DNA from: Nonlabens arenilitoris
GTDB lineage: Bacteria; Bacteroidota; Bacteroidia; Flavobacteriales; Flavobacteriaceae
Reading direction: 5' to 3'
DNA: 64,000 nt
Assembly: GCF_002954765.1 (NCBI RefSeq)
Contig: NZ_MTPW01000001.1
Location: 1,997,501-2,061,500, forward strand
A program made the position numbers and the translations under genes. Every line of letters begins with the position of its first letter. Position 1 is the first letter of the stretch. The notes below the pieces were generated by a model that was given only the letters and a program-made list of their open reading frames with translations, did no database searches and was not told where the DNA came from. Of the stretch, positions 17,664 through 18,425 are shown in pieces.

Positions 17664-17668
17664 ATACT

Positions 17669-17780
17669 GTCATTCTGAACTCGTTTCAGAATCTACTAAT
17701 GATGGAAAACAAAGAAATATTTTAAACGATTATCAAGCGTCGCTGTAATATGAGATGCTGAAATAAATTCAGCATGACAG
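17669..17780. repeat. REP-like element, copy A
   Basis: A 112-bp element with imperfect terminal inverted repeats (TGTCATTCTGAA at the left; the right end TTCAGCATGACA is its complement with one mismatch). Each end is itself a hairpin: ATTCTGAA-CTCGT-TTCAGAAT (17672-17692) and ATGCTGAA-ATAAA-TTCAGCAT (17755-17775). The interior is AT-rich and partly conserved in copies B and C. The right end lies 32 bases before the GIY-YIG start. Confidence 0.9.
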
Positions 17781-17812
17781 GTGTTATGTCTTTTTTAGTA
17801 AATTTAAAGTTT

Positions 17813-18118
17813 ATGCCAAAAAGAGCTCACCATAATTATACTGTTTATATCTTAACCAATAAAAAATTAGGAGTACTATATACAGGCATGACTGGAGGAT
17901 TAGATGATAGATTATTGAGGCATCGTTTAGGGGAAGGATCAAAATTTACTAAAAAATACAACGCTAGTAAGTTGGTCTATTTTGAAGAATTTCAATATGT
18001 TAATGATGCTATTACCCGTGAAAAACAAATTAAAAACTGGCATCGACAGTGGAAAATAAATCTTATTGAAAAGGATAATCCTAATTGGGATGATTTTTCT
18101 GAAAATTGGGTATTATAA
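17813..18118 (+). CDS. GIY-YIG nuclease family protein (URI/UPF0213 type)
   Basis: This small (101-residue) protein carries a single GIY-YIG domain. The two signature tyrosines are in YTVYILTN (residues 9-16) and LYTGMT (22-27); Arg and His residues lie in LLRHRLGEGSKF and the metal-binding Glu is probably in REKQIKNWHRQWK. I start at MPKRAHHNYTVY. A start at 17774 would add 13 residues encoded inside the right hairpin of REP-like copy A, which looks spurious. It lies between two REP-like elements in the same orientation. Homologues are uncharacterised; nuclease activity is inferred from the fold. Confidence 0.9.
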   Translation: MPKRAHHNYTVYILTNKKLGVLYTGMTGGLDDRLLRHRLGEGSKFTKKYNASKLVYFEEFQYVNDAITREKQIKNWHRQWKINLIEKDNPNWDDFSENWVL

Positions 18119-18132
18119 TATTAAAATTAGAT

Positions 18133-18245
18133 CTGTCATTCTGAACTCGTTTCAGAATTTGTTGGTTACAGAAATCAAATAAATCTTTTAAACGACGATC
18201 AGAGGACGTTGTAAAATGAGATGCTGAATCAAGTTCAGCATGACA
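18133..18245. repeat. REP-like element, copy B
   Basis: Same structure and orientation as copy A: left hairpin ATTCTGAA-CTCGT-TTCAGAAT (18138-18158), right hairpin ATGCTGAA-TCAAG-TTCAGCAT (18221-18241), terminal TGTCAT and ATGACA. It begins 14 bases after the GIY-YIG stop. The hairpin stems are identical to copy A while loops and interior have diverged. Confidence 0.9.
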
Positions 18246-18273
18246 TGATTAATTCTTTTCTCCACGTCGCGCA

Positions 18274-18313
18274 CGTTTGCAACGCGTTCGTTATAACGTA
18301 GCATTTGTAATGC
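18274..18313. repeat. Cluster of small palindromes
   Basis: Adjacent short dyads: CGTT-TGC-AACG (18274-18284), AACGCGTT (18281-18288), CGTTATAACG (18289-18298) and GCATT-TGT-AATGC (18301-18313). The cluster sits where the left half of REP-like copy C should be. It looks like a second, different repeat family that landed in or replaced part of copy C. Confidence 0.7.
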
Positions 18314-18330
18314 GCTAAATACTAATCGCA

Positions 18331-18425
18331 ACAGAATTTGCTGGCTATAGAAAACAAAGGAATATTTTATACGATAATCAATCGTCTTTGTAAAAAGAGA
18401 TGCTGAAATAAATTCAGCATGACAG
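18331..18425. repeat. REP-like element, copy C, left end lost
   Basis: Only the right hairpin (ATGCTGAA-ATAAA-TTCAGCAT, 18400-18420) and the interior remain, starting at CAGAATTT (18332), which corresponds to the outer arm of the left hairpin in copies A and B. The right part matches copy A more closely than copy B, including the ATAAA loop. Confidence 0.8.

Follow-up and report, generated by a model that had tools for sequence, protein, structure and literature searches.

Repetitive extragenic palindromic (REP) sequences are the closest described relatives of the repeats considered here, which surround a small GIY-YIG nuclease gene in Nonlabens arenilitoris. The stretch analysed, hereafter the window, covers 64,000 nt of this genome (assembly GCF_002954765.1, NZ_MTPW01000001.1, positions 1,997,501-2,061,500, forward strand). 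In the systems of REPs with REP-associated tyrosine transposases (RAYTs) and of REPINs (REP doublets forming hairpins), together called REPtrons, a small gene is likewise bracketed by its cognate REPs, and many solo or dimeric REPs lie elsewhere. The RAYT systems combine a Y1/HUH tyrosine transposase with a GTAG tag, whereas this locus combines a GIY-YIG protein with a (C/T)GTC tag. Repeats with such a tag are described in passages of a 2013 survey as CGTC REPs, having a CGTC, TGTC or CCTC tag, a stem of 8-9 bp that starts with A-T, a loop of 4-5 bases, a CCA tail in most but not all cases, and mainly a head-to-head dimeric arrangement. The same passages equate the neisserial dRS3 with CGTC-1 and name A. 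lipoferum, Neisseria, S. chlorophenolicum and S. meliloti among the CGTC-positive taxa (PMC3733652). As far as these passages go, the super-family is apparently without a dedicated transposase, and none of the tyrosine transposase genes of CGTC-positive species is flanked by CGTC REPs (PMC3733652). The analysis presented here leaves hardly any doubt that the GIY-YIG gene is associated with its REPs. The locus is probably a small GIY-YIG nuclease gene with its own TGTC/CGTC-type REP hairpins, in which the nuclease would cut the cognate repeat and copying would proceed by recombination.

The gene is separated from the elements on its two sides by 33 and 15 bases (Table 1). Each full element consists of two inverted hairpins with an 8-bp stem and a 5-base loop; the left hairpin is preceded by the tag TGTC and the right one is followed by GACA. 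The stems are the same in all copies in the window; elements 1 and 2 are 81% identical, and the left-truncated element 3 shows 74% identity. The tagged half-hairpin pattern (up to one mismatch) has five matches in the window, all at the GIY-YIG locus, compared with a mean of 0.01 in shuffles, and as single-stranded DNA the three elements fold better than shuffled sequences (z of -3.0, -3.3 and -3.6). An earlier note on this DNA had described two hairpin-ended elements bracketing a 101-residue GIY-YIG gene, followed by a truncated third copy, and repeat, folding and Pfam evidence bears this out. The stem and loop sizes that it gave, and the likeness of the stems between copies, hold at all listed window hairpins. 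Its layout stands, while its positions were about 1 base off, with gaps of 32 and 14 bases.

Table 1. Features of the window, with positions counted from its first base.
Feature	Position	Strand	Details
Element 1, head-to-head dimer	17668-17779	.	TGTC 17668-17671; hairpins 17672-17692 and 17755-17775; GACA 17776-17779
Small stand-alone GIY-YIG nuclease gene, 101 aa	17813-18118	+	Pfam PF01541 match, conserved residues, predicted fold
Element 2, same orientation as element 1	18134-18245	.	TGTC 18134-18137; hairpins 18138-18158 and 18221-18241; GACA 18242-18245
Element 3, left hairpin gone	18332-18424	.	right hairpin 18400-18420; GACA 18421-18424
Palindrome CGCTTTCGCGAAAGCG	5581, 10724, 17592, 21918, 27455, 35546, 39238, 47418, 50545, 54606, 56783		pattern count

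The same note had taken the elements for an undescribed kind, which they are not. Their TGTC tag, AT-initial 8-bp stem and 5-base loop agree with the definition of CGTC REPs in the passages of the survey (PMC3733652), and the two full dimers in the window and the 13 tagged matches dispersed in the N. arenilitoris genome agree with its head-to-head dimers and dispersed copies. The window hairpins thus resemble CGTC REPs (dRS3, RPE-4/RPE-6) in tag, stem, loop and dimers, and differ from them in the lack of a CCA tail, their tails being CTA, TTG and CTC, and in the gene partner proposed here. CCA is present at other loci.

The 101-residue protein matches the Pfam GIY-YIG family (PF01541) with 57.6 bits, against a cut-off of 22.6. 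This is its sole Pfam match, and no Y1/HUH domain was found in it by Pfam. GIY-YIG active sites contain a conserved Tyr, a Tyr-x-Gly, an Arg and a Glu. In an alignment of 16 sequences, Y12, Y23, G25 and E70 are invariant and R33 is nearly so. The predicted fold is nearest to the GIY-YIG proteins UPF0213, Slx1 and UvrC, with I-TevI also among the matches. By sequence, the nearest solved relatives are the UPF0213 proteins 1zg2 and 1ywl, the former also being the top Foldseek match; these are likewise single-domain GIY-YIG proteins, but are listed as hypothetical. A search of open-licence PMC for literature on UPF0213 with endonuclease returned nothing. An alternative in-frame ATG at 17774, within the end of element 1, would extend the protein to 114 aa.

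The association between gene and hairpins extends across bacteria. GIY-YIG loci were collected by protein-only searches and their hairpins scored afterwards, counting GTCA-tagged hairpins up to 400 bp from the gene. The wide set combines the best 80 of 558 confirmed candidates, a choice by which it leans to close relatives, with 29 class loci; L252 was dropped from the hairpin counts, leaving 108 genes. A tagged hairpin lies beside 77 of these (Bacteroidota, Proteobacteria and other phyla) and on both sides of 44, compared with 11 of 357 control genes, all from Nonlabens (none on both sides), 1 of 27 HNH genes (30 loci less 3 dropped) and none of 28 Y1/RAYT-type genes (30 loci less 2 dropped). 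GTCA is the commonest tetramer at the flank hairpins of the wide set (189/294, with GTAG at 2/294), and is carried by 12 of 228 control hairpins. None of the three multi-domain GIY genes of the N. arenilitoris genome has a tagged hairpin, and after shuffling of the wide-set flanks one is found at 1 of 109 loci. With the set reduced to a single gene for each genus or genome label, a tagged hairpin is present at 55 of 80 (Fisher 4.9e-39 against the 357 controls). Also, upstream and downstream flanks align to each other with a score of at least 30 at 47 of 109 loci and in none of 645 permuted pairs. In 38 of the 55 genes tagged on both sides, the two nearest tags both face outward, and the gene in these cases lies within a split head-to-head dimer. 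The idea that REPs gather around any mobile nuclease was rejected on the HNH count (1/27), and a RAYT relative was rejected on the missing Y1 match and on the count for Y1/RAYT-type genes of the class (0/28).

Outside what we take, from general taxonomy, to be the Bacteroidota, 16 of 25 named loci have a tagged hairpin, or 13 of 22 when Aliifodinibius, Melioribacteraceae and one unnamed bacterium are removed. GIY-YIG genes bracketed by REPs are found in A. lipoferum, N. gonorrhoeae, S. meliloti (with a CTC tag) and a Sphingobium other than S. chlorophenolicum. We assume Sphingobium to be the genus of S. chlorophenolicum, which is abbreviated in the CGTC survey. The arrangement is present in taxa named as CGTC-positive in the passages of that survey, namely Azospirillum lipoferum, Neisseria (dRS3) and Sinorhizobium meliloti (PMC3733652). 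In the class search, GIY-YIG relatives occur in 170 of 247 genomes. A plasmid collection gave 34 records with a match; among the 11 examined, the stems to the left and right of the gene agree in eight (six of them with a GTC tag at both), hairpins are one-sided in two and absent in one.

Small GIY-YIG genes are present in 22 of 23 Nonlabens genomes, with 89 matches in total, 68 of which were analysed after two adjacent rows of G015 were merged and 20 weak rows (E 1.1e-9 to 2.6e-4) were omitted. Hairpins with the same stem on both sides occur in 28 of the 68 rows (28/53 of one group and 0/15 of the UPF0213-like rows), compared with 1 of 357 controls; in 9 of the 15 UPF0213-like rows, the two flanks share long similar stretches that belong to other repeat families. 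The N. arenilitoris genome has six GIY-YIG matches, including two small genes, the second of which is decayed by an in-frame stop and bracketed by a different palindrome. The gene at the window locus of G019 also has an in-frame stop, with two elements around it where the window has three, and in G007 two gene copies lie ~6 kb apart, one of them shortened. Tandem duplicate cassettes were observed at L031/L044 (G017) and at L034/L070 (G010, one copy shortened), and probably arose by recombination of the flanking direct repeats.

The stem type follows the protein lineage. A protein tree with few columns and several unsettled forks separates the GIY-YIG lineages. Nonlabens genes of the same clade in different genomes share at least five of the six loop-proximal stem bases in 85% of 157 pairs, same-site pairs included, while those of different clades within one genome do so in none of 43 pairs; this comparison leaves out the wide-set Nonlabens loci L157, L158 and L169. 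The within-genome contrast goes beyond host relatedness alone. For clade A at different sites, 82% of 67 pairs share at least five of six stem bases, and joint vertical inheritance of site and repeat was rejected on this ground. Over the 147 of 176 genes that have hairpins, protein and stem similarity correlate with a rho of 0.34, the largest value in 300 permutations being 0.08.

Comparison of single sites between relatives reveals cassettes, solo hairpins and vacant gaps. Between two genes that we take to be paaZ-like and paaG-like, a clade-E cassette is present in 11 Nonlabens genomes (three with broken or shortened genes), a clade-H cassette in four and a clade-I cassette in two, each lineage with its particular hairpin type. 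At this site, G011 has a solo E-type hairpin in a 96-bp gap, G021 has a 51-bp gap with no element, and G018 has a different gene; G017 gave no paaZ within 1.5 kb, and G012 and G013 gave no close paaG match. Beside the E cassettes there is a whole H-like hairpin upstream in G007, half of one in G003, G006 and G015, and an I-like half in G000 and G014, which suggests serial occupancy. These remnants probably explain why a share of 0.22 of the pairs from different clades have similar stems at this site. Plain terminators of the neighbouring genes were rejected, since the stem type here varies with the GIY-YIG lineage and the neighbours are constant. As a separate observation, cassettes of varying lineage occupy both of the sites L062 and L035, which are 4-5 kb apart in most two-site genomes and ~10 kb apart in G010; one of the two is presumably in a phenylacetate-type cluster.

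In Sphingobium, the site between fnrL and a response regulator gene holds a cassette in TomMM7A and TomTYG46, and seven plasmids match it over its full length. A solo double-tagged palindrome takes its place in TomTYG64 and, imperfectly, in TomTYG74; in TomTYG64 it is made up of the outermost 12 bases of the left cassette end followed by the outermost 17 of the right one. TomTYG72 and TomTYG65 have neither, and TomTYG65 has another hairpin. Among six aligned Azospirillum, only A. lipoferum has the cassette at sufB-sufC. The junctions in the Azospirillum and Shinella relatives that lack a cassette are not sharp. At the window locus, the neighbouring sequence of G020 differs too and gives no clean empty site, and at the solo-element site L015 no boundary can be resolved in G020, and G019 has a gap between two matches. 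The earlier note had put a GIY-YIG gene in the place that a RAYT holds beside GTAG REPs, an idea that the flank association supports, and had made its case hang on association beyond chance and on gain or loss of the cassette in relatives. The former is found in the hairpin counts (77/108 against 11/357) and the latter at the paaZ-paaG and Sphingobium sites. Taken as a whole, its interpretation is partly supported.

Element copies are more numerous where the gene is present. Clade-A matches in the 12 gene-bearing Nonlabens genomes number 13, 27, 11, 1, 20, 25, 15, 23, 26, 1, 4 and 2, whereas nine of the 11 gene-free genomes have no match and the other two have one each (p 2.7e-5, species tree ignored); for clade E, the p value is 0.0009, again with the species tree ignored. 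In G003 the lone clade-A match lies apart from the gene, and the assemblies of G012, G013 and G020 are 77-86% complete. G018, the only genome without a GIY-YIG match to the query, has no clade A, E or F element match. Of the clade-A matches listed (14 rows of G014 left out), 46 of 135 are located no more than 650 bp from the cognate gene's midpoint, as are 28 of 75 for clade E and 31 of 73 for clade F, where chance would give ~0.05 or less. The clade-E elements between non-GIY genes resemble ordinary solo REPs.

The association, the cognate pairing and the site states show gene and repeats to be one co-travelling unit, which is gained, lost and exchanged together. It is likely that the GIY-YIG protein acts as a nuclease on its REP. 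It would recognise the tag and stem of its own REP and cut there, and repair with another copy as the template would spread solo REPs. If the donor held the gene between REPs, the whole cassette would be copied in a homing-like manner via host recombination, and solo REPs and head-to-head dimers may relate to the nuclease as REPINs do to RAYTs, serving as its targets or as copies that are not autonomous. Spread by such cut-and-repair rather than by strand transfer is put forward tentatively.

Several observations weigh against this proposal. No GTCA-tagged hairpin is present at 31 of the 108 wide-set genes, and the share is 14 of 28 in the evenly drawn class part and 23 of 68 in Nonlabens, where it is low because several lineages carry palindromes without the GTCA tag. 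Y1/RAYT-type genes have alike flanks (score of at least 30) in 5 of 28 cases, of other kinds and without the tag. The copy-number comparison, made for three element families (clades A, E and F) in 23 genomes, carries no species-tree correction, and clade F follows the gene weakly (p 0.019, on the same basis). The majority of counted element copies are found at a distance from the cognate gene, as are REPs in RAYT systems, and G021 contains dense clade-F arrays (L295, 514-1695, 12 matches; L296, 479-1102, nine matches) within which no GIY-YIG gene was found. The window gene has a full dimer on each side and not one split dimer, and the simple split-dimer form therefore does not fit this copy. 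No target-site duplication was seen in the Sphingobium, Azospirillum and Shinella site alignments. GIY-YIG enzymes hydrolyse DNA, and we know of none that performs strand transfer; therefore, movement would need host functions.

The last point bears directly on a transposase-like role, in which the GIY-YIG protein itself would excise and insert hairpin-bounded single strands as RAYTs and IS200/IS605 enzymes do. The combination of tag and hairpin, the outward ends and the solo palindromes at cassette sites do resemble excision and insertion products. However, the predicted fold and the missing Y1/HUH match point elsewhere, the chemistry of the family is, to our understanding, hydrolytic, and no joined intermediate has been seen, so that this role is unlikely. 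A service to the host, in which the nuclease processes REP hairpins in extruded DNA or matching RNA and the REPs spread otherwise, is very improbable, given that a patchy distribution, decay by in-frame stops, the swapping of cassette types within a site and the joint travel of gene and stem type have a selfish rather than a housekeeping look. The gene could also be a passenger, a free-standing homing gene with another target, to which REPs offer safe landing sites or recombination arms. Flanking direct repeats alone are able to duplicate or delete a gene, as in the tandem copies of G017 and G010, but the stem type tracks the protein lineage and not the host genome, and HNH and Y1/RAYT-type genes of the same class do not share the tagged flanks; we consider a passenger highly unlikely.

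Nuclease cutting of the cognate REP, the reading preferred here, invites comparison with GIY-YIG homing endonucleases, which we take to be grouped as the I-TevI type. The locus resembles them in its catalytic fold and in the presence or absence of the gene at one site among relatives, and differs in that the cassette has its own hairpin ends, of which solo copies are dispersed. It is conceivable, at slightly less than an even chance, that the locus represents a new class of mobile element. A single-domain GIY-YIG nuclease would be the sole protein of this DNA unit, outward-tagged hairpins would form its boundaries, and by cuts at its own palindromes the unit would spread both the REPs and itself. 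Such elements would be the missing partner of CGTC/TGTC REPs, dRS3 included, and among the most widespread repeat-making systems of bacteria. A large share of bacterial intergenic palindromes would then have a cause and a direct test, REP systems would have arisen with two unrelated enzyme types, and a function would be assigned to a large family whose members bear, in the records examined, only the names 'GIY-YIG nuclease family protein', 'excinuclease ABC subunit C' or 'hypothetical protein'. No published link between GIY-YIG proteins and REPs was found among the titles and abstract openings listed from open-licence PMC or in the passages of PMC12306157, PMC6006769 and PMC9465073, and 'GIY' is absent from the main text of PMC3733652.

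Two minor observations were made. On a Planktothrix plasmid (L284), a GIY-YIG gene lies between an MmeI-type enzyme and DISARM drmA, with no flanking hairpins in the hairpin scan. In the window, the palindrome CGCTTTCGCGAAAGCG is a separate over-represented motif with 11 copies (nine exact and two with one mismatch), compared with a mean of 0.00 in shuffles.
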